64,000 bases of DNA, from positions 1,432,001 through 1,496,000 of the forward strand of contig NZ_CP038141.1 in assembly GCF_006542355.1 (NCBI RefSeq), given 5' to 3'. Below are positions 27,368 through 59,939 of the stretch, piece by piece. The notes beneath the pieces were generated by a model, which saw only the letters and a program-made list of their open reading frames with translations, did not search any database and was not told the origin of the DNA. The first letter of the stretch is position 1, and each line of letters begins with the position of its first letter. Made by a program: the position numbers and the translations under genes. The DNA is from Swingsia samuiensis. GTDB lineage: Bacteria; Pseudomonadota; Alphaproteobacteria; Acetobacterales; Acetobacteraceae.

Positions 27368-28180
27368 ATGCACGGCCGTGTTCTTACGATAGCAGGAAGT
27401 GACTCCGGGGGGGGCGCAGGCATACAGGCTGATCTAAAGACGATTACGGCTTTAGGCGGCTTTGGCATGAGTGCGATTACGGCTCTTACCGCACAAAACA
27501 CGGTTGAGGTTAAAGAGGTTCATACCGTGCCGGTGTCGTTTATTCGGAAACAGATTCAGGCTGTGGTTACGGATCTCGGGGTAGATTGTTTTAAAACAGG
27601 TATGTTGGCATCCGCAGAGATTGTTCATGCGGTAGCGGATGAGTTGGATAACTGGAAAGGGATACCACTTGTTTTAGACCCGGTTATGGTGTCGACAAGT
27701 GGCTCGTCTCTTTTAGCACCTGATGCCATCAGTGCGGTGATAGAGCGGTTATTGCCACGCAGCACTATTGTAACCCCTAATATTCCTGAAGCAGAAATGA
27801 TGACAGGGATTGAGATTAAAACTTTGTCGGATATGCGGAGAGCAGCGGCTATCTTACAGCAAAAGGGTGCAAATTCTGTATTGCTGAAAGGGGGGCACCT
27901 TGAGAGCGATACATTAATTGATCTTTTGGTTTTAAAAAATGGTACTGAAATAGTTTTAACAAGCACAAAGATAAAAACGCGGCATACACATGGAACAGGG
28001 TGCACACTTGCGAGTGCGATTGCTGTTGGGGTAGCGCAAGGATATGCCGCGGAAAAGGCTGTTCGTCGTGGGAGCGATTATTTACGACAAGCATTGTTAA
28101 ACGCTCCCGGATATGGGCACGGTCATGGACCAGTAGATCATGGGGTGACGGTTCAAGAATATTGGAAGACTATTAAATAA
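27368..28180 (+). CDS. thiD: Hydroxymethylpyrimidine / phosphomethylpyrimidine kinase
   Basis: This 270-residue ribokinase-fold enzyme phosphorylates HMP and HMP-phosphate for thiamine synthesis. '[20 protein letters not shown]' near the N-terminus, '[12 protein letters not shown]' and '[14 protein letters not shown]' (anion hole and catalytic Asp region) are family hallmarks. It lies 5 bp after glmM. The last 8 bp overlap the 3' end of the convergent ctrA gene, and no terminator separates the two. Confidence 0.93.
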
Positions 28181-28934
28181 GTGCAGGTGAAGTGGTGCTT
28201 TGCAGAGGGGGTGTTTGAGGGAAATGGTTAGGGATTTTCTTAATATGAGGTAGAGTTGTACTTAATTCGTTTTGTAGAACATATCCACGCCCCCACACAG
28301 TAGTAATCAAGTTCTGTGCACCGGCTTTTTGAAGTTTTCTTCTTAATTTGCAAATAAAGACATCAATAATTTTCATTTCAGGCTCATCGATACCGCCATA
28401 TAAATGATTGAGGAATGCATCCTTAGTCAGAACGGAGCCTTTGCGGATTACAAGAAGTTCTAAAATAGCATATTCCTTACCCGTGAGGTAAAGGGGCTGG
28501 CTATTGATGGAAACGTTTTTACTGTTAAGATCCAGTTCTAGATTGCCAATAGTTAAGCGTGGTTCTGAAAAGCCACGAAAACGACGCGCTACTGCTTGTA
28601 AGCGAGCAACAAGTTCACCAGTATCGTAAGGCTTAGTCAAATAATCATCAGCACCAAGTGAAAAAGCTTTGATTTTAGCTTGAGGGCGTAAAAGACCGGA
28701 TAGAATAATAATAGGTGTTGTAATCTTTGCGGCACGAGCCCGGCGGATCACCTCATACCCTTCGATATCTTCAAGCAATAGTTCTAATACGACCACATCA
28801 TAATCATAGTGGCGAAGCATATCGATTGCTTCTTCACCGGACGTTGTATGATCCACCATGAAAGATGCTGTCCGCAACATGAGAGTAAGGTTGTTGGAAG
28901 ATTGAAGGTCATTATCGACAAGAAGAATACGCAT
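28173..28934 (-). CDS. ctrA: CtrA-family response regulator with Glu at the phosphorylation site
   Basis: This 253-residue protein has a receiver (~1-118) and an OmpR-type winged helix (~125-225) that is almost the CtrA signature: 'LTGKEYAILELL', 'FLNHLYGG', 'KIIDVFICKLRRKL', 'VWGRGYVL'. CtrA controls the cell cycle in Caulobacter and mainly motility in many other Alphaproteobacteria. Counting from the ATG, residue 51 is Glu (GAA codon at 28782-28784 on the minus strand) in 'VVVLELLLED', where Caulobacter CtrA has its phospho-accepting D51. One acidic-pocket residue is also changed (D7-N8-D9). The switch Ser ('IILSG') and Lys ('TKPYD') remain. The C-terminal tail of ~25 residues ends in Ala-Leu-Ile, without the Ala-Ala degron. 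It is divergent from fliI. AGGAG lies 8 nt before the ATG. Confidence 0.92.
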   Translation of the reverse strand: MRILLVDNDLQSSNNLTLMLRTASFMVDHTTSGEEAIDMLRHYDYDVVVLELLLEDIEGYEVIRRARAAKITTPIIILSGLLRPQAKIKAFSLGADDYLTKPYDTGELVARLQAVARRFRGFSEPRLTIGNLELDLNSKNVSINSQPLYLTGKEYAILELLVIRKGSVLTKDAFLNHLYGGIDEPEMKIIDVFICKLRRKLQKAGAQNLITTVWGRGYVLQNELSTTLPHIKKIPNHFPQTPPLQSTTSPALI

Positions 28935-29047: not shown

Positions 29048-29062
29048 TTAAGCGCTTTTTAA
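29048..29062. promoter_or_regulatory. CtrA-type box TTAA-N7-TTAA upstream of fliI
   Basis: TTAA-GCGCTTT-TTAA lies 42 bp before the fliI start, in the 170-bp gap shared with divergent ctrA. This is a perfect full-site match in front of a flagellar gene, a typical class of CtrA target. It could also act on ctrA itself, whose start is 113 bp away. Confidence 0.65.
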
Positions 29063-29104: not shown

Positions 29105-30466
29105 TTGCTTATTTTCAATGAATTAGATGGCTTTAGACAAAAATTTTCAGACATGAAATCTAATCATGCCTTTGGTGTTGTTCATAATGTCCGTGGATTG
29201 TGTTTAACGATTCGTGGGCTTGAGAGAATCATCTCTATTGGGGATAGGGTTACAATAAAATCACGTAACAATGATTATATACAATCTGAGGTTGTGTCTT
29301 TTGATAATGATCAGGCCACAGTGATGGTCTTTGGTTCTTTGGAGGGAATTGGGCCCGGTTGCGAAGCGCAGATTACATTGCAGGCTAGTTTGGCCCCCGA
29401 GTTGAAGGTGAGCGATGCGTGGTTAGGCCGTATTGTAGATCCTTTGGGAAGGCCGATAGACGGACAAGGGGCATTGTGTGCAGACGAATATGGTCAGCCG
29501 TTGAAAGCACTTCCTCCAGATCCGGCTTTGCGGGCCCGGTTGGGAGAGCGCATTGATTTAGGGGTAAGGGCGTTGGACGTTTTTACAACATGCCGGCAAG
29601 GGCAAAGATTGGGGCTTTTTGCAGGGTCTGGTGTTGGGAAATCTACTTTGCTGTCTATGTTGGCGCGTGGAACAGAATGTGATGTAGCCGTTATTTCACT
29701 GGTGGGAGAGCGTGGACGAGAGGTTCGGGAGTTTATAGAAGATAGTTTAGGTGAAGAGGGGCTAGCGCGGAGTGTGGTCGTTGTCGCAACATCTGATGCT
29801 CCACCCTTGATGCGACGGGATGCAGCCGTTTCAGCAATGACAATTGCAGAATATTTCCGTGACCAAGGAAAATCAGTTCTTCTGCTGATGGATAGCGTAA
29901 CGCGTTATTGCATGGCACTTCGTGAGATTGCGCTTTCATCAGGGGAGCCACCAGCAACGCGCGGGTATCCTCCATCTGTTTTTGCTGATCTGCCTAAATT
30001 ATTGGAGCGTGCTGGCCCGGGATATGCGCATCAAGGGATGATAACGGCGCTATTTACCGTTCTTGTTGAAGGAGACGACCATAATGAACCTGTGGCCGAT
30101 GCTGTAAGAGGTATTTTAGATGGTCATATTGTTTTGGATCGACGCATTGCAGAGCAGGGACGTTATCCAGCAATTGATGTTTTGCGTTCCTTATCGCGCT
30201 CTGTCCCAGGATGTCATTCTGTAAAAGAAACATATTTGGTGAAGAAAGCCCGAAGTATTATGGCTATCTATGACCGTATGGCCGATATGATTCGTTTGGG
30301 AGCTTATAAAGATGGTGCAGATCTGGAGGTAGATGAAGCCATTCGTATCATGCCTGCTTTAAAATTATTTCTTAACCAGATGAAAGATGAAAGAACGGGT
30401 ATCAATGATGCCTTTGAACAGCTGGCTCAGATTTTGAGTGAGGAAGAAAGTAGTGTGTCCTCATGA
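29105..30466 (+). CDS. fliI: Flagellum-specific ATPase FliI
   Basis: This 453-residue protein is the ATPase of the flagellar type III export apparatus, a relative of the F1 beta subunit. Walker A is 'GLFAGSGVGKSTLLSML' (P-loop residues 174-181), the Walker B region is 'VLLLMDSVTRYCMALREI', and 'ATRGYPPSVFADLPKLLERAG' is characteristic of FliI/YscN. The TTG start at 29105 has GAGG ~10 nt upstream; an ATG at 29153 would remove the start of the N-terminal beta barrel. The stop overlaps fliJ by 4 bp (ATGA). A CtrA box lies upstream. No other flagellar genes are in the window. Confidence 0.93.
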   Translation: MLIFNELDGFRQKFSDMKSNHAFGVVHNVRGLCLTIRGLERIISIGDRVTIKSRNNDYIQSEVVSFDNDQATVMVFGSLEGIGPGCEAQITLQASLAPELKVSDAWLGRIVDPLGRPIDGQGALCADEYGQPLKALPPDPALRARLGERIDLGVRALDVFTTCRQGQRLGLFAGSGVGKSTLLSMLARGTECDVAVISLVGERGREVREFIEDSLGEEGLARSVVVVATSDAPPLMRRDAAVSAMTIAEYFRDQGKSVLLLMDSVTRYCMALREIALSSGEPPATRGYPPSVFADLPKLLERAGPGYAHQGMITALFTVLVEGDDHNEPVADAVRGILDGHIVLDRRIAEQGRYPAIDVLRSLSRSVPGCHSVKETYLVKKARSIMAIYDRMADMIRLGAYKDGADLEVDEAIRIMPALKLFLNQMKDERTGINDAFEQLAQILSEEESSVSS

Positions 30467-30915
30467 GGTCGGTGGATCAATCAGGCCCGTTGGAATCTTT
30501 ATATAAACTTCGTTCTGACGAGTGTGATCAAATAGAACAGGTCTTTACATCTTATCATTTAAAAGAAAGAGAGGCGGAATCTCTTTGGAGAAGGTCTCTT
30601 CAAATTAAAAAGGAAGAACAGGAAAAAGCAGAAAATGCGCAGCGTTCAGGAGACGAGGCATCTATACAGGAGTTTAGTGTGTGGTTGCCCTATGGGCAAA
30701 AAGAAATCGAAGAAACATATAAGAGGTATCAAAAGGCCAAAGGAGAGTGTGAAGTCGCACATCAAGAGTTAATACAGGCTCAGGCTGCCCTTCAAGCTGT
30801 TGAGAAATTAAGAGAGCAGCATAAAGTGGCTGATGTACGTGCGAGTTTGCTAAAAGAGCAAATGATTTTGGATGAAATAGCCTTACGGCATTTTATCAGA
30901 CGCAGTTACTTTTAA
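30463..30915 (+). CDS. fliJ: FliJ-like flagellar export chaperone
   Basis: This 150-residue, highly charged protein is almost entirely predicted coiled coil, with Glu, Gln, Lys and Arg in heptads from residue ~10 to ~140 and very few aromatic residues. That composition and the 4-bp overlap with fliI fit FliJ, the central stalk of the FliI ring that also helps dock export chaperones. Sequence identity in this family is low, so the call rests mainly on position and coiled-coil character. Its last 33 bp overlap the 3' end of the convergent hypothetical gene. Confidence 0.72.
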   Translation: MRSVDQSGPLESLYKLRSDECDQIEQVFTSYHLKEREAESLWRRSLQIKKEEQEKAENAQRSGDEASIQEFSVWLPYGQKEIEETYKRYQKAKGECEVAHQELIQAQAALQAVEKLREQHKVADVRASLLKEQMILDEIALRHFIRRSYF

Positions 30916-38827: not shown

Positions 38828-41695
38828 ATGGCTGGTACATCTAATACCAGCCCCTCAAGGGGGGCTGATTCTATCCGTAAGTTAGGAGAGTATAAACAAT
38901 CTCCATGGCTGGATTTTATTCAGCGTAGCTATACGGAAAGTGGTAAGCTTAAAGGCCTTGTCGATTTAGACGACCTTCGCGGCGTAACATCTAATCCAGC
39001 GATTTTTGAAAAAGCGATTGGTTCTGGTACGGATTACGATCCTCAGATCAATGAATTGTTGGCAAAAGATGCTCTTCCTCCAGGAGAGCTATATGAAACG
39101 CTGGCAATTACAGATATCCGTGCAGCATGTGCGGTTATGCACCCAGTGTTTGAAAAGACAAAAAAGATTGACGGGTATGTCAGTCTTGAAGTTTCTCCAT
39201 ATCTTGCTTTTGATACAAAAGGTACGATTGAAGAAGCACGTCGTCTTTGGAAAGAAGTTGATCGTGATAACCTCATGATCAAAATTCCTGGTACGAAAGA
39301 AGGCACTGTAGCGGTTCGTGATGCTATTGAAGATGGTATCAATGTTAACGTTACACTTCTTTTCGCTTTAGATGCCTATAAAGCTGTTCTTGAAGCTTAT
39401 ATTTCTGGTTTGGAAGCTCGTGCAGCTAAAGGCGAAAGTGTCGCCGATATTGCAAGTGTGGCTTCATTCTTTGTGAGCCGTATTGATGGCAAGATCGATG
39501 CTGAAATTGATCGTCGTGTCGCAGCGGGTGATAAAGACGCGGAAGCTTTAAAGGCACTTCGTGGTAAAGTTGCGATTGCAAATGCAAAGCTTGCATATCA
39601 GCACTATCTTGAAGTGACTAAAAGCCCACGTTGGCAAGCACTAGCTCAAAAAGGTGCTCAGCCTCAACGTCTGCTTTGGGCAAGTACAGGCACAAAAGAT
39701 AAAGCCTATTCTGACGTTCTGTATGTTGAAGAATTGATTGGTGAAAACACCGTCAATACTATTCCGCCAGCAACGTTTGATGCGTTTCGCGATCATGGTA
39801 AAATTCGTGCCAGCCTCATTGAAAATGTTGATGCGGCCCGTCAGGTTCTAGCGGATGCTAAACGTTTAGGTTTAGATTTGGACGGTGTTACATCAACATT
39901 GGTTGTTGAAGGTTGTGCCGCTTTCTCAAAATCCTTCGACACGCTTTTAGGGGCTGTAGCCGCTAAGCGGGAGGCAGTGCTGGGAAAACGGTTACTCCAC
40001 GTCAGCGCTGATCTTCCCTCAGAGCTGCGCGATATCGTTGCAGAAGCTGAGGCGACGTGGAGTACGGAAGGTCTTGTTCGCCGCCTTTGGAAAAAGGATG
40101 CATCGGTTTGGACAAATGGGCCAGAAGCTAAGTGGCTTGGATGGTTGAATATCGTTCAGGAACGTTTAGCTCATGTTGATGAACTAGAAACATTAGCGCG
40201 AGATGTTAAAGCGCGTGGTTTCTCGGATGTTCTTCTTTTGGGTATGGGCGGATCAAGCCTTGGCCCTGAAGTTTTAGAGAAAACATTTGGTCAAAAAGCG
40301 GGTTGGCCAAAACTACATGTCCTAGATAGTACAGACCCTCAGCAAGTCAGTACTTTTGAAAAAGCAGTAGATGTTAAAAAGACGCTCTTTATTGTGGCCA
40401 GTAAGTCTGGTGGCACGTTAGAGCCTAACATCTTATTTGCTTATTTCTGGGATGTGGCCAAGAAAGCGTTGGGAAAAGATCCTGGTGATAACTTTATCGC
40501 CATTACAGATCCTAACTCCCACATGCAGGACGTCGCTAAAGAACATCATTTTTGGCGCACATTCTTTGGTGACCCGGCAATCGGTGGACGTTTCTCTGTT
40601 CTTTCTAACTTTGGACTGGTTCCTGCTGCGGTAAGCGGGATTGAGGTTCGTAAGTTCTTAGAATCAACACGTCTCATGATTGAAAGCTGTGACGCAAGCG
40701 TTCCGGCCGAAGTGAACCCAGGGATCTCTCTTGGTTTAATTCTAGGTCATGCTGCTAAAAATTTTGGCAGAGACAAAGTGACAATTCAGGCATCTGAAGG
40801 AATTGCTTCTTTTGGTGCTTGGTTGGAGCAGTTGGTTGCAGAAAGTACTGGTAAAATTGGTAGGGGCTTGGTTCCTATAGACGAAGAAGAACTTGGTTCT
40901 CCTGAAGTCTATGGCAAAGACCGTGTTTTTGTTGATCTGTTATTGGGTGATGAAAAGCCGAATAGCCGTTTGGCAGCTTTGCGTAATGCGGGTTCACCTG
41001 TTGTTACGGTGCGTTTGACGGATCCGGAGCAGATTGGCCAAGCTTTCTTCTTGTTTGAACTTGCCATTGCTGTAGTCGGCTCTGTTTTGGATATTGATCC
41101 TTTTGATCAACCAGACGTCGAGTTCAGTAAAGTTGAAACGCGGAAGCTCACCTCGGCTTACGAAGAAACAGGTTCTCTTCCAAAAGAAGCGCCTTTTGCA
41201 GTAGATGGGGATCTCTCTTTCTATGCAGACGACAAAAATGTCGCAGCTCTTGGAAAGGGCGATGCTGTTTCTATTTTGAAAAAGCATTTTGCACGCGTTG
41301 GGGCTGGGGATTACGTCGGGCTTTTGGCTTATATTGAACGTGATCTAGAAACCCGGCGCTGGGCTCAAGATGTTCGTATGAAGCTTAGGGATGCGTTAAA
41401 GGTTGCTACTGCTGCAGAGTTTGGGCCTCGGTTCTTACACTCAACAGGGCAGGCTTATAAAGGTGGCCCTAACAGTGGCGTATTCCTTCAGGTTACTGCC
41501 ACAGATGCGAATGATTTGCCTGTCCCAGGGTATCGCTTCACGTTTGGTGTGGTGAAAGCTGCCCAAGCACGTGGTGATTTTGAGGTATTGTCTTCTCGGG
41601 AGCGTCGCGCTCTACGAGTTCATATTAATGGATCGTTGGAAGCTGGTCTAAAGACACTTGCTGACGCGATCAGTAAAGCAATTACAGGAGCGTAA
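38828..41695 (+). CDS. tal-pgi: Bifunctional transaldolase / glucose-6-phosphate isomerase
   Basis: This 955-residue fusion links two sugar-phosphate enzymes. The transaldolase half (~1-385) has 'LDDLRGVTSNPAIFEKAI' and the Schiff-base lysine near residue 151 in 'NLMIKIPGTKEG'. The isomerase half (~395-955) has 'LLLGMGGSSLGPEVL', 'IVASKSGGTLEPN' and a later catalytic His/Lys region including 'HINGSLEAGLKTL'. The fusion is known from acetic acid bacteria and some other lineages. It would channel fructose-6-phosphate between the non-oxidative pentose-phosphate pathway and glucose-6-phosphate, allowing cyclic use of the pathway. Spacings to tkt (11 bp) and gnd (3 bp) show one operon. Confidence 0.96.
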   Translation: MAGTSNTSPSRGADSIRKLGEYKQSPWLDFIQRSYTESGKLKGLVDLDDLRGVTSNPAIFEKAIGSGTDYDPQINELLAKDALPPGELYETLAITDIRAACAVMHPVFEKTKKIDGYVSLEVSPYLAFDTKGTIEEARRLWKEVDRDNLMIKIPGTKEGTVAVRDAIEDGINVNVTLLFALDAYKAVLEAYISGLEARAAKGESVADIASVASFFVSRIDGKIDAEIDRRVAAGDKDAEALKALRGKVAIANAKLAYQHYLEVTKSPRWQALAQKGAQPQRLLWASTGTKDKAYSDVLYVEELIGENTVNTIPPATFDAFRDHGKIRASLIENVDAARQVLADAKRLGLDLDGVTSTLVVEGCAAFSKSFDTLLGAVAAKREAVLGKRLLHVSADLPSELRDIVAEAEATWSTEGLVRRLWKKDASVWTNGPEAKWLGWLNIVQERLAHVDELETLARDVKARGFSDVLLLGMGGSSLGPEVLEKTFGQKAGWPKLHVLDSTDPQQVSTFEKAVDVKKTLFIVASKSGGTLEPNILFAYFWDVAKKALGKDPGDNFIAITDPNSHMQDVAKEHHFWRTFFGDPAIGGRFSVLSNFGLVPAAVSGIEVRKFLESTRLMIESCDASVPAEVNPGISLGLILGHAAKNFGRDKVTIQASEGIASFGAWLEQLVAESTGKIGRGLVPIDEEELGSPEVYGKDRVFVDLLLGDEKPNSRLAALRNAGSPVVTVRLTDPEQIGQAFFLFELAIAVVGSVLDIDPFDQPDVEFSKVETRKLTSAYEETGSLPKEAPFAVDGDLSFYADDKNVAALGKGDAVSILKKHFARVGAGDYVGLLAYIERDLETRRWAQDVRMKLRDALKVATAAEFGPRFLHSTGQAYKGGPNSGVFLQVTATDANDLPVPGYRFTFGVVKAAQARGDFEVLSSRERRALRVHINGSLEAGLKTLADAISKAITGA

Positions 41696-55452: not shown

Positions 55453-56181
55453 TTGAATAAGATTGCATTGCGGTTAAAAGAGGTCGTTCCTGGGCAAGAG
55501 CTAAGGCATGCTTTCCTTTGCGGAACATCTTACGATGTAAGGCATGAATTTGCTCGATTATTACACACGCATGGGATGCACTCAGAAGGGCCATTTATCG
55601 TTGCTTCCTTAATGTCCTTACCCAGTGTTCTACGAGATAAATCGTTATTTGGAGCTGAGCAATCAGGTTGGATTGAACAGGCCAGAGGCGGTACATTACT
55701 ATTGGATGAATTAGATGGCCTTTCACTTGCTTCACAGCATCGGTTTGTTGACGCAATTATTGGCTTGGGAGCAGAGTTGCGAGTGATTGTTGGGAGCCGT
55801 TATGAGTGGGATCTGCTCATGACAAGCGGTGCATTGCATGATGAGCTCAAGAAATGGATGCTGCAATTCTCTCCCCATCAAATTTTTAGTGCAGGAAAAA
55901 TTAAAGAACTTTACCCGGACGCTCGTAGGCATGAGCGAACAACGTCAAAGTCTTTGAGTGTTGCTTTAAGGGAGTATGTTGAAAGGATTTTGGAAACAGA
56001 AAGTGAAGATTTGCATACGCATTTTATCGAGAAAGTAGAGAGACCTCTTATAACAGCCGTTTTAAAATACACATCAGGCAATCAGTTAAAAGCGTCGAGT
56101 ATTCTAGGGTTAAATCGTAACACGTTAAGAAAAAAAATTCAGAGTTTGGGAATACAGATATCAAAGGGAAGCAACGAGTGA
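55453..56181 (+). CDS. Degenerate NtrC: truncated AAA+ remnant with intact Fis-type HTH
   Basis: This 242-residue protein sits where ntrB-ntrC normally lie. The receiver domain is gone. The AAA+ region (~10-150) keeps recognisable 'SLFGAEQ' (64-70) and Walker B 'GGTLLLDELDGL' (79-90). The Walker A position reads 'CGTSYDVRHEF' with no GKE/GKT, and the GAFTGA sigma-54 loop between SLFG and the Walker B block is deleted. The C-terminus (195-240) is by contrast a nearly perfect NtrC end: 'VERPLITAVLKYTSGNQLKA' continuing into 'LGLNRNTLRKKIQSLGI'. ATP hydrolysis and sigma-54 activation should be lost, leaving a Fis-like DNA-binding protein. The TTG start lies 24 bp after dusB and the stop is 11 bp before ntrY. 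It is a full-length ORF, not an obvious frameshift product. Confidence 0.85.
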   Translation: MNKIALRLKEVVPGQELRHAFLCGTSYDVRHEFARLLHTHGMHSEGPFIVASLMSLPSVLRDKSLFGAEQSGWIEQARGGTLLLDELDGLSLASQHRFVDAIIGLGAELRVIVGSRYEWDLLMTSGALHDELKKWMLQFSPHQIFSAGKIKELYPDARRHERTTSKSLSVALREYVERILETESEDLHTHFIEKVERPLITAVLKYTSGNQLKASSILGLNRNTLRKKIQSLGIQISKGSNE

Positions 56182-56192
56182 GGAGAGGCGTC

Positions 56193-58541
56193 ATGCGGCA
56201 TGCTTGGGAGCGTTTGTGTAGTACGCGTAGTGCCGTTGTGTTGACCGTAATGGCGTTAATTCTAGCTTTTGCTACTTTCGTTGTCTTGGCTGGGGGGATG
56301 TCGATTGCATATCGTCCCCAAGTTCAGGTTATTATTTTCTTCCTTGATTCACTTATGGTGATGTTAATTTCGGCAGTCACGGTCGGTCAGATTGGGAAAA
56401 TGTTAGATGAGCGGCGGCTAGGTTTCGCTGGTGCTCGACTGCATGTCCGATTGATTACTCTCTTTGGGGTCGTGGCTGTTCTTCCAACAATTGTCGTTGG
56501 TGCTGTTGCCGCGTTGTTTTTCCATTATGGGGTTGAGATCTGGTTTTCTAACCGTGTGAAGACGGCTTTAAATGAAGCGCGCTCGGTTGCGGCTGGGTAT
56601 TTGCAAGAACATAATGATAATATTCGTACAGAAGCGTTTGCTTTGGCCAATACGCTTATTTCAATTCAGAATGACGAACTTTTCACGCATGGGACAGATT
56701 TGTTTCATAATCCGGCCCGCCTGCAAGAACTATTAGGGGATGAAGTTTATGAGCGTGGTTTAACGGAAGCTGAAGTATTTGACCCTCTGACGAATAAAGT
56801 TTTGGCAGTAGGGGGGCTTTTGGGATCAGCGGATATGAATTCTCATCCACCGCTCCCCCCTAAATCAGTCGTGGAAATGGCACGAGCCGGAGATGTAGCT
56901 ATTCTGGATCGTCCTGACCAACGTATGATCAGGGCAATTATTTCCTTAAGTGGTAATTCAGGGCTGATGTTAATTATTTCCCGTCCTGTAGATCCTGATA
57001 TCGTAGAGCACATGCGTCGAACAGATAAGCTCGTGCAGGATTATCAATACATGATTGATAATCGTGGAAAAACTCAGGTAACGGTTGTTGTTATTTTTGG
57101 CCTGATGGGGCTTCTCGTTCTTGCTGTTGGAATGTTGACAGGGCTTTCGTTAGCGAACCGGATTGCTAACCCTCTTGGACTGCTTATTTTAGCTGTAACG
57201 CGAATTTCGCAAGGGGATTTGGGGGTGCGTGTGCCAGTCCCTGCTGTGGCAAATAATAAAGATGATGAAGTAACGGGTTTATCACGTGCGTTTAATCAAA
57301 TGACGGATCAGCTGGAGAGCCAGCGTTTTGAACTGATGCGCGTGTATGATGATATTAATGAACGCCGGCGGTTTACAGAAACGGTGCTATCGGGTGTCTC
57401 TGCTGGCGTTATTGGATTGGATCGGCAACAGATTATTGAATTGCCTAACCGTGCGGCATCAAGCGTCTTGCAGCGTGACCTTCAGCCTGCAATCGGATTG
57501 AAACTGGCAGAAAGAGTGCCAGAGTTTTCTGATTTGTTAGAGAAAGCCAATCAGTCCCCTGACCGGATTCATACTCAAGAAGTTCAGGTGGATATTCATG
57601 GCGCTGAAAAGCCGGGAGGGCCGGGAGAAGGGGGAGGAGCAGGTGCTGGGCGAACATTGCTCGTTCGTATTGTTGCAGAGTTTCGAGAGGCTGAGGTGCA
57701 AGGGTATGTCGTTACCTTTGATGATATAACGGACTTGCAATCGGCTCAGAGGAAAGCAGCTTGGGCGGATGTCGCGCGAAGAATTGCTCATGAAATTAAA
57801 AACCCATTAACTCCCATTCAGCTTGCTGCTGAAAGATTAAAAAGACGTTTTTTAAAAGAAATCACCAGTGATCCAGAAATTTATGTACAACTGGTGGATA
57901 CAATTGTGCGCCAGGTTGGGGATATAGGGCGTATGGTTGATGAGTTTTCAGCTTTTGCGCGGATGCCTCAACCTATCATACAGGCGGAAGATTTTTCTCG
58001 TATTTGCCGAGAGGCTCTTATCCTGCAAAGAAATGCACATCCTAATATTTTATATGAGACATTAAACTTTCCCGTGTCCGGGCCTTTGGTCAAATGTGAT
58101 AGAAGATTAATCGGTCAGGCATTAACGAATTTGTTGCAGAATGCGGCAGATGCCATCCTGATGGTAGAACAAGGAAAACAAGATGAATGTTTTTCTGGGC
58201 AAGAGCTGCAACCTATTGGACATATTGTAATGAATATGTACCTTAAAGAAGGACAGGCCGTTTTAGAGATCGATGATGACGGGGTTGGTTTGCCGACAGG
58301 TGAACGACATCGTTTGACGGAACCGTATGTAACGCATAAAGCAAAGGGAACGGGTCTTGGTCTTGCGATCGTTAAAAAGATTATGGAAGACCATGGGGGA
58401 ATATTATTGTTATCAGATCGAGAATCACAATCGACAAACATAAGGCGGGGGACGCGCGTTACATTGTCTCTCCCGTTAAATGATACCATGATCGAAGGTG
58501 AGCATCAGGATAGCGTAAAAGAGGAAGAGGGCCGGGCATAG
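56193..58541 (+). CDS. ntrY: Sensor histidine kinase NtrY
   Basis: This 782-residue membrane kinase has N-terminal helices (~15-40, ~48-70, ~85-110), a long extracytoplasmic segment (~115-285), another helix (~290-312), a HAMP domain (~315-370), a PAS domain (~385-510), HisKA with H533 in 'RRIAHEIKNPLTPIQLAAER', and an HATPase with 'LLQNAADAIL', 'DDGVGLP' and 'GTGLGLAIVKKIMEDHGG'. NtrY phosphorylates NtrX and senses redox or nitrogen-related cues in other Alphaproteobacteria. A Gly-rich insert (~472-490) interrupts the PAS domain. The ATG at 56193 has GAGGAGAGG just upstream, better than the GTG at 56178 that overlaps the previous stop. Confidence 0.93.
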   Translation: MRHAWERLCSTRSAVVLTVMALILAFATFVVLAGGMSIAYRPQVQVIIFFLDSLMVMLISAVTVGQIGKMLDERRLGFAGARLHVRLITLFGVVAVLPTIVVGAVAALFFHYGVEIWFSNRVKTALNEARSVAAGYLQEHNDNIRTEAFALANTLISIQNDELFTHGTDLFHNPARLQELLGDEVYERGLTEAEVFDPLTNKVLAVGGLLGSADMNSHPPLPPKSVVEMARAGDVAILDRPDQRMIRAIISLSGNSGLMLIISRPVDPDIVEHMRRTDKLVQDYQYMIDNRGKTQVTVVVIFGLMGLLVLAVGMLTGLSLANRIANPLGLLILAVTRISQGDLGVRVPVPAVANNKDDEVTGLSRAFNQMTDQLESQRFELMRVYDDINERRRFTETVLSGVSAGVIGLDRQQIIELPNRAASSVLQRDLQPAIGLKLAERVPEFSDLLEKANQSPDRIHTQEVQVDIHGAEKPGGPGEGGGAGAGRTLLVRIVAEFREAEVQGYVVTFDDITDLQSAQRKAAWADVARRIAHEIKNPLTPIQLAAERLKRRFLKEITSDPEIYVQLVDTIVRQVGDIGRMVDEFSAFARMPQPIIQAEDFSRICREALILQRNAHPNILYETLNFPVSGPLVKCDRRLIGQALTNLLQNAADAILMVEQGKQDECFSGQELQPIGHIVMNMYLKEGQAVLEIDDDGVGLPTGERHRLTEPYVTHKAKGTGLGLAIVKKIMEDHGGILLLSDRESQSTNIRRGTRVTLSLPLNDTMIEGEHQDSVKEEEGRA

Positions 58542-59939
58542 ATGGAGCACGAAATCCTGATCGTTGATGACGAACCAGATATTCGGTTTCTTATTGAAGG
58601 TATCCTGAATGATGAGGGATATGTAACACGTTCGGCGGCTAATTCCGATCAGGCATTGGAGTTGTTTCGTAAACATCGTCCATCCTTAGTTATTCTTGAT
58701 ATTTGGCTTCAGGGATCACGGCATGATGGTATTGAGTTGCTCAAATTCATTAAAGCAGAAGAGCCTGAACTCCCGGTCTTGATGATTTCCGGGCATGGAA
58801 CAATAGAGACAGCTGTTTCAAGTTTGAAACATGGGGCCTATGATTTCATAGAAAAACCATTCCAATCAGATCGATTGCTGGTTGTGGTACAAAGAGCATT
58901 AGAAGCTGCCCGTCTTAAGCGAGAGAATGCAGAGCTACGGCTAAAAGCTGGTCCTGAAAGTGATTTATTTGGTGATGGTCCGACGATCTCCGTTATTCGT
59001 GGTCAAATTGAACGTGTCGCCCCAACGAATTCGCGTGTTTTGATTACTGGTCCTGCAGGGGCAGGGAAGGAAGTTGCTGCGCGTATGCTTCATGCGCGTT
59101 CACGTCGTGCAGAGGCTCCCTTTATTGCATTAAATTGTGCCACTTTAGCGCCGAGCCGTTTTGAAGAAGCACTTTTTGGAATTGAAGGGGAGAATGGTCA
59201 GCCGACGCGCCGAGGGGTGTTGGAGCGCGCCCATAAAGGAACGTTGCTGCTTGATGAAGTGGCGGATATGCCTTTGGAGACACAAGGTAAAATTGTTCGT
59301 GCTTTGCAAGATCAGAGCTTTGAACGTGTTGGAGGAAATACGCGTATAAAAGTTGATATACGTGTTATAGCGACAACGAACCGTGATTTGCAGACAGAGA
59401 TTGCTGAGCGGCGTTTCCGAGAGGATCTTTATTATCGTTTGGCTGTCGTTCCGTTGAAAATGCCTTCTCTAAGAGAGCGTCGAGAAGATATTCCGAGCCT
59501 TGCTCATCATTTTCTTTCGCGTAGTGCTCAAACTTCAGGGCTTCCTATGCGTGAATTATCGGTTGATGCATTGGCCGCACTGCAAGCTTATGACTGGCCT
59601 GGTAATTTGAGAGAGTTGAAGAATCTGATGGAGAGGCTTCTGATTATGATGCCAGGGAGTGGGGAGCCTATTCGGGCAGATATGCTCCCTGCGGATATGG
59701 GACAGCAGGCACCATCTATGACACGCTTGAACTCAGGGGCAGATGTAATGAGCCTGCCATTGAGAGAAGCACGAGATCAGTTCGAGACGCAGTATCTGCA
59801 GGTGCAATTAATGCGATTTGGTGGCAATATTAGCCGGACTGCCAATTTTGTGTGTATGGAACGCAGTGCCTTACACCGTAAATTAAAGCAGCTTGGGGTG
59901 ACAATGAATGAGGATCGTGCGGCGTCGCCTGAGAATTGA
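58542..59939 (+). CDS. ntrX: Response regulator NtrX
   Basis: This 465-residue NtrC-class regulator has a receiver (~1-125) with phospho-acceptor D53 in 'LVILDIWLQGSRHDGIELL'. The AAA+ domain (~140-380) has Walker A 'ITGPAGAGKEVAARM' (170-177) and 'GTLLLDEVADMPLETQGKI'. A Fis-type HTH (~420-460) ends 'SALHRKLKQLGV'. The sigma-54-contacting GAFTGA loop is replaced by 'GIEGENGQPTRRGVLE', as is known for NtrX proteins, so it probably does not activate sigma-54. The ATG comes 1 bp after the ntrY stop. hfq follows 39 bp later, the order typical of Alphaproteobacteria. Confidence 0.95.
   Translation: MEHEILIVDDEPDIRFLIEGILNDEGYVTRSAANSDQALELFRKHRPSLVILDIWLQGSRHDGIELLKFIKAEEPELPVLMISGHGTIETAVSSLKHGAYDFIEKPFQSDRLLVVVQRALEAARLKRENAELRLKAGPESDLFGDGPTISVIRGQIERVAPTNSRVLITGPAGAGKEVAARMLHARSRRAEAPFIALNCATLAPSRFEEALFGIEGENGQPTRRGVLERAHKGTLLLDEVADMPLETQGKIVRALQDQSFERVGGNTRIKVDIRVIATTNRDLQTEIAERRFREDLYYRLAVVPLKMPSLRERREDIPSLAHHFLSRSAQTSGLPMRELSVDALAALQAYDWPGNLRELKNLMERLLIMMPGSGEPIRADMLPADMGQQAPSMTRLNSGADVMSLPLREARDQFETQYLQVQLMRFGGNISRTANFVCMERSALHRKLKQLGVTMNEDRAASPEN

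Follow-up and report, generated by a model that had tools for sequence, protein, structure and literature searches.

How can CtrA work if its phospho-acceptor position is occupied by glutamate? This question is raised by a gene on the minus strand (28173..28934) of the window, i.e. the whole 64,000-nucleotide stretch of DNA analyzed here, which belongs to a genome of two contigs and 2.19 Mb. The open reading frame, together with profile and PDB matches, defines a 253-aa protein composed of a pseudo-receiver and an OmpR/PhoB-type DNA-binding domain. Among the NCBIfam models the CtrA model NF045991 was the nearest one (323 bits versus 158 for the runner-up), although this score lies below its cut-off of 350 bits, which is specific to Rhodobacterales. 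In the PDB search other OmpR-type regulators ranked first, and the CtrA receiver 4qpj_C was matched at 1.4e-30. Over its whole length the protein is closest to CtrA. Codon reading bore out two statements of the initial annotation, Glu at the phospho-acceptor position 51 (GAA, 28782..28784, minus strand) and Asn at residue 8 (AAT, 28911..28913, minus strand), the latter meaning that the Mg2+ pocket has lost its second acidic residue as well. Lacking the acceptor Asp and a further pocket residue, the receiver has the features of a pseudo-receiver and not those of a canonical CtrA. The conserved basic pocket residue is present as Lys101 according to codon reading and alignment (AAG, 28632..28634, minus strand) and is the likely partner of Glu51. 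Identity comparison indicated a conserved DNA-binding domain at about residues 125-222 (28269..28562, minus strand). The protein ends with Ala-Leu-Ile. A C-terminal Ala-Ala degron, tried as a candidate feature, is absent here, and the ends of the relatives are too variable to decide on it.

The CtrA alignment across the Acetobacteraceae suggested by the initial annotation revealed a wide distribution of E51. Out of 80 named loci retrieved, 79 were readable at residue 51 and carried 67 D, 10 E, 1 A and 1 G. E51 was found in 4 Gluconobacter loci, 4 Acetobacter loci, all of which retain D8, Acidomonas, and Bombella mellum. A second Bombella locus has A51, so that E51 occurs in one of two, and G51 is found in one Roseomonas locus. 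In a family sample of 220 genomes, CtrA was matched in 196 (E<=1e-40), and the five pocket positions could be read in 179. The 41 unread genomes were 24 without a CtrA match at this threshold and 17 represented by fragments, broken or too diverged sequences, or G113, G133 and G239. E51 was detected in 36 of the 179 readable genomes, spanning 19 genera. The substitution had been attributed to "this lineage". This holds for the whole genus, but the distribution is much wider: E51 extends over a large part of a clade and occurs in four or more separate places of the CtrA gene tree.

Several other family members deserve mention. D51 is carried by L086, a metagenome bin labelled Asaia bogorensis, contrary to a rule that acetic acid bacteria have E51. 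Over residues 1-199 its canonical CtrA does not differ from the protein of G234, a ChpT-bearing genome of 4.9 Mb, and the label of the bin is probably wrong. In the small-genome relative G057 (L361) the ctrA homology is split over two frames, and residue 51 is Ala. The near-complete genomes G124, G180, G222, G054 and G140 are without CtrA at E<=1e-40 and outside the ChpT matches; the first three are single contigs of 2.7 Mb. For Granulibacter, absence of ctrA is already in print, according to the available text of PMC2877005.

Is the relay that phosphorylates CtrA still present in these bacteria? As a marker of ChpT we used PF10090 (E<=0.001), which matched 137 of the 220 genomes. Thirteen of these, with a weak match or with matches solely in long kinase frames, were set aside as ambiguous, and 124 were counted as positive. 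No PF10090 match was found in the window genome, and ChpT was found in none of the 5 tested genomes of its genus (5 of 26, the window genome among them). Among the 179 readable genomes, those with a canonical pocket comprised 110 ChpT-positive, 5 ambiguous and 6 negative cases, compared with 1, 2 and 33 for the 36 E51 genomes and 2, 3 and 17 for genomes with otherwise broken pockets. Four of the 6 canonical negatives are drafts of 84-92% completeness, and the other two, G038 and G055, lie inside the ChpT-less clade. Fisher's test for E51 versus ChpT yielded p of about 6e-26, a value uncorrected for kinship, and therefore we relied on the CtrA gene tree instead.

The model NF046020 was rejected as a test for CckA. 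In a scan that scored the best four candidates at most per genome, it matched 191 of 220 genomes at E<=1e-70, including the window genome, and paralogous kinases match as well. It was therefore replaced by a kinase tree and a CckA-clade profile. This profile was built from 16 CckA-clade proteins, the first of which matches PDB CckA 5idm at 1e-35, and was run on 80 chosen genomes at E<1e-130. Matches were obtained in 18 of 25 ChpT-positive, 1 of 50 ChpT-negative and 1 of 5 ambiguous genomes, the sole ChpT-negative one being G187, which has a canonical CtrA. None of the 36 E51 genomes matched at this threshold. Since 7 of the 25 ChpT-bearing genomes were missed, absence of CckA can be stated firmly for the group and less firmly for a single genome. 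In the kinase tree of 60 rows, 30 of them top matches to the CckA model, 33 rows (32 distinct genes) grouped with Caulobacter CckA (0.99), and no row from 12 E51 genomes, G055 or G071 was in this clade. A CckA-clade kinase was among the retrieved kinases in only 3 of 10 comparison genomes, and the tree is therefore used as supporting evidence only. In the window genome, where all 25 candidate kinases were scored against the CckA model, CckA and ChpT were not found.

The proposal of the initial annotation that this CtrA is uncoupled from CckA-ChpT is thus strongly supported by the lack of ChpT in 33 and of a CckA profile match in all of the 36 E51 genomes. Loss of CckA-ChpT phosphorylation appears well supported, and the window CtrA very probably works without it. 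Persistence of the relay genes had been suggested as a check. Here cckA and chpT spoke for uncoupling, and divK was uninformative and was dropped as a marker, being nearly absent from the family (7 of 220 genomes at E<=1e-22, 37-42% identity, with Caulobacter DivK as query). All 38 genomes examined for GcrA have it.

The pocket alignment of 258 distinct sequences, with the diverged CtrA of G065, G146 and G196 outside it, revealed a characteristic pattern around E51. D8 is retained in 173 of 190 D51 sequences and in only 6 of 61 E51 sequences. Hence, the other 55 have lost the Mg2+ site that serves phosphotransfer. At position 8 the E51 proteins carry S, P, N, T, G, H, Y or D. All 61 aligned E51 sequences have a basic residue at position 101 (Arg instead of Lys in 9), compared with 2 of 7 sequences with A, G, H or N at position 51. 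Three very diverged CtrA from genomes without ChpT (G065, G146, G196) combine E51 with Ile101. The E51 codons are 50 GAA and 17 GAG. Mean identities of receiver and DNA-binding domain are 62% and 76% in the E51 set, and 69% and 76% in the canonical set. The receivers of the E51 set thus diverge faster than the DNA-binding domains, and the DNA-binding half, described by the initial annotation as almost canonical, is conserved. Arg51 was found in six genomes of two genera (L362, L363, L364, L365, L367, L369) and Ser51 in one genome of a third (L368), all of them ChpT-less and belonging to genera g68, g96 and g24. In these proteins the DNA-binding half is still CtrA-like, and the receiver is fully degenerate and without Lys101, perhaps as a further step of the same receiver decay. 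Together with the E51/Ile101 proteins they indicate that Glu is dispensable for a relay-free CtrA.

The CtrA gene tree was built without the five pocket columns, and some of its nodes are weak. Its main clade (58 sequences, support 0.895) contains 43 E51, 11 D51, 2 A51, 1 H51 and 1 N51 sequences, and in the 11 D51 members the pocket is mostly broken. No clear ChpT was found in the tested genomes of this clade, 3 being ambiguous and 4 genomes of the genus and 8 named rows lying outside the test. E51 also occurs outside the main clade in g81, G171 and G156, and therefore at no fewer than four separate places on this tree. G156 combines E51 with ChpT and has no CckA match in a draft of 88% completeness. 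A second CtrA-like copy in this genome has D51 and is without Lys101.

Taken together, the window protein is probably a true CtrA orthologue that has turned into a phosphorylation-independent pseudo-receiver regulator, held by Glu51 and controlled by its abundance. With the relay gone, the receiver would cease to switch. Glu51, held by the basic residue 101 and S/T79, may replace the contact made by the aspartyl-phosphate, and this contact would keep CtrA competent for DNA binding. CtrA would then be locked "on", and its activity would be set by the amount made or destroyed, as the initial annotation had suggested. That Glu51 itself holds CtrA active is the leading reading, which we favor with some reserve. 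In the window lineage relay loss was likely followed by D51E and then by drift at D8; in other lineages D8 was lost and D51 retained. A more general proposal, which we regard as tentative, is that the phosphorelay switch was hard-wired repeatedly: after loss of CckA-ChpT, a phosphomimetic Glu would have been fixed by the contact between Glu51 and Lys/Arg101, shifting all control to CtrA abundance. As judged from sequence, the protein should be filed as CtrA by descent and, by its presumed function, as a pseudo-receiver variant and not as a phosphorelay regulator.

The pseudo-receiver may also operate without such a lock. CtrA would then bind DNA via intrinsic dimerization or via its DNA-binding domain alone, Glu51 being a tolerated, fold-stabilizing replacement. 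In ChxR, which carries Glu at the acceptor site, replacement by Asp or Ala did not abolish DNA binding, as stated in the available portion of PMC4395418, and the occurrence of R, S, A, H, N and G at position 51 in ChpT-less relatives points in the same direction. However, the presence of E51 in 43 out of 58 sequences of the main clade while residue 8 varies argues against this reading, as does the invariable pairing of E51 with a basic residue 101 in the 61 aligned sequences, even though the latter is missing in the three diverged proteins. On this evidence we consider a CtrA without the lock rather unlikely.

A different kinase or a small phosphodonor might modify CtrA at another residue and so keep the switch. 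The window genome retains other hybrid kinases, including its best match to the CckA model, the REC-HisKA-HATPase-REC kinase L165, but this protein lies outside the CckA clade, and the loss of D8 in 55 of 61 E51 sequences also speaks against a preserved switch, which makes this explanation improbable. L165 is located at about 320.7-321.8 kb of G000:C1, with a receiver match, a second two-component gene, nearby at 324.0 kb. Similar kinases were found in three other E51 genomes (L166, L167, L169), and L165 is a candidate for the signalling that replaced CckA.

The surroundings of ctrA and its conservation within the genus bear on the integrity of the gene. Between ctrA and the divergently oriented neighboring gene, motif matching identified a CtrA-box-like site of the type TTAA-N7-TTAA (29048..29062, no strand assigned), which reads TTAAAAAGCGCTTAA towards ctrA. 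The neighbor encodes a FliI-like flagellar/type III export ATPase (29105..30466, plus strand; Pfam ATP-synt_ab and T3SS_ATPase_C) and is followed by fliJ (30463..30915, plus strand; Pfam FliJ, 5.6e-8). In the genus set of 26 genomes, which includes the window genome and for which the genus was taken as Gluconobacter, a box with at most one mismatch was found within 200 bases before ctrA in 25 genomes (5 exact), with 6.7 expected from shuffles. Its position was -127 to -129 in 22 genomes, with a variable spacer. For the upstream stretch of the window genome itself the shuffle probability of a one-mismatch box is 0.53, and the weight of the box therefore lies in its conservation. Genome-wide, 65 boxes were counted versus 87 for the reversed control. 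Due to this lack of enrichment the count lends no support to a large regulon. Among the D51 family loci examined, exact boxes seldom occur upstream of ctrA (L058), and no consistent GANTC site was found close to the gene in the genus.

The ctrA-fliI neighborhood is common to the window and its D51 relatives (L374-L378). In three of these (L374, L375, L376) chpT is located about 6 kb from ctrA. The gene order in L376, whose locus was read completely, is chpT-cheA-cheW-cheY-cheB-cheR-ctrA-fliI (Pfam names, CheY denoting a single receiver domain only), which links ChpT to chemotaxis genes, and the L376 ChpT matches PDB ChpT 4fmt at 2e-7. No che or chpT genes were seen beside ctrA-fliI-fliJ in the window. 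Further downstream in the window, a 955-aa open reading frame among sugar-phosphate genes (38828-41695) represents a transaldolase-phosphoglucose isomerase fusion according to Pfam. At 56178-59939 an open reading frame resembling a membrane histidine kinase precedes one for a receiver-containing sigma-54 activator, a pair which we take to be NtrYX-like.

Decay of ctrA into a functionless gene is very improbable here. Some small-genome relatives do have a split ctrA (G057) or lack any CtrA match at E<=1e-34 (G054, G140, G232); against this stand the absence of internal stops in all 26 genus matches, a mean identity of 91% of the DNA-binding domain within the genus, and the conserved upstream box. 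The two objections raised by the initial annotation itself, a sequencing error at codon 51 and a second, canonical CtrA in the genome that would make this one a paralogue, can practically be dismissed: nothing was found in their favor, E51 is present in 26 of 26 genus genomes, which excludes the error, each of these genomes has a single CtrA match at E<=1e-40, and in a search of the whole window genome no further CtrA turned up, the best of the other OmpR-type regulators being only 34% identical. Residue 8 is Ser in 25 of the genus genomes and Asn in the window genome.

Relay loss in the Rhodospirillales is already known, as far as the consulted parts of two papers go. Brilli 2010 described the phosphorelay of its Rhodospirillales cluster as absent to a varying extent, with chpT not found and cckA called present by best hits (PMC2877005). 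In contrast, our profile and kinase tree find no CckA in E51 genomes. A 2021 paper on chromosomal location reported ctrA, gcrA and ccrM in 72-82% of Rhodospirillales genomes and chpT, cckA and divL in only 27-36% (PMC8116508). The term "D51" is absent from the main texts of both. A tie of relay loss to E51 or pocket decay was not found in the open-licence papers searched.

For the best-studied cell cycle switch of bacteria, this distribution amounts to a natural experiment. It suggests that selection can maintain CtrA in the absence of the phosphorelay and hints at the order in which a relay is dismantled. Two questions become directly testable in bacteria that are harmless and can be cultured, namely whether the ancestral role of CtrA in motility needs phosphorylation, and whether pseudo-receivers owe their activity to the residue at the acceptor site. 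With the acceptor replaced and the relay enzymes not found, evolution seems to have rewired a molecular switch into a fixed part.

The window protein is an orthologue of the canonical CtrA of Caulobacter, Brucella and Rhodobacter, with a DNA-binding domain of the same type and an upstream CtrA-box-like site, and it shares its flagellar neighbor genes with the D51 loci of the Acetobacteraceae. It differs from canonical CtrA in lacking the acceptor Asp and D8 in a genome where no CckA or ChpT was found. The initial annotation had correctly named D51E as the laboratory phosphomimetic of CtrA, a use documented in the accessible sections of PMC6363796 and PMC5189948. The residue and the substitution are the same, whereas the E51 described here, known from genome data, is natural, common to many species and accompanied by loss of D8 and the relay. 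If the proposed reading is true, a whole bacterial clade would live with an allele that, when also stabilized, kept Caulobacter cells under stress in G1 (PMC5189948, same sections). The aspartate-less OmpR-PhoB regulators ChxR and HP1043 likewise lack the acceptor Asp, with Glu in the case of ChxR (PMC4395418, as excerpted). In the consulted part of PMC12632262, pseudo-receivers are described as commonly having Glu at the acceptor site, Asn as the second pocket residue and Arg in place of Lys, and the window CtrA shows the first two of these traits. CtrA is not mentioned in the main texts of these two papers. Unlike ChxR and HP1043, the window protein derives from a phosphorelay-controlled CtrA, and across the family the decay of its receiver is tied to the loss of the relay.
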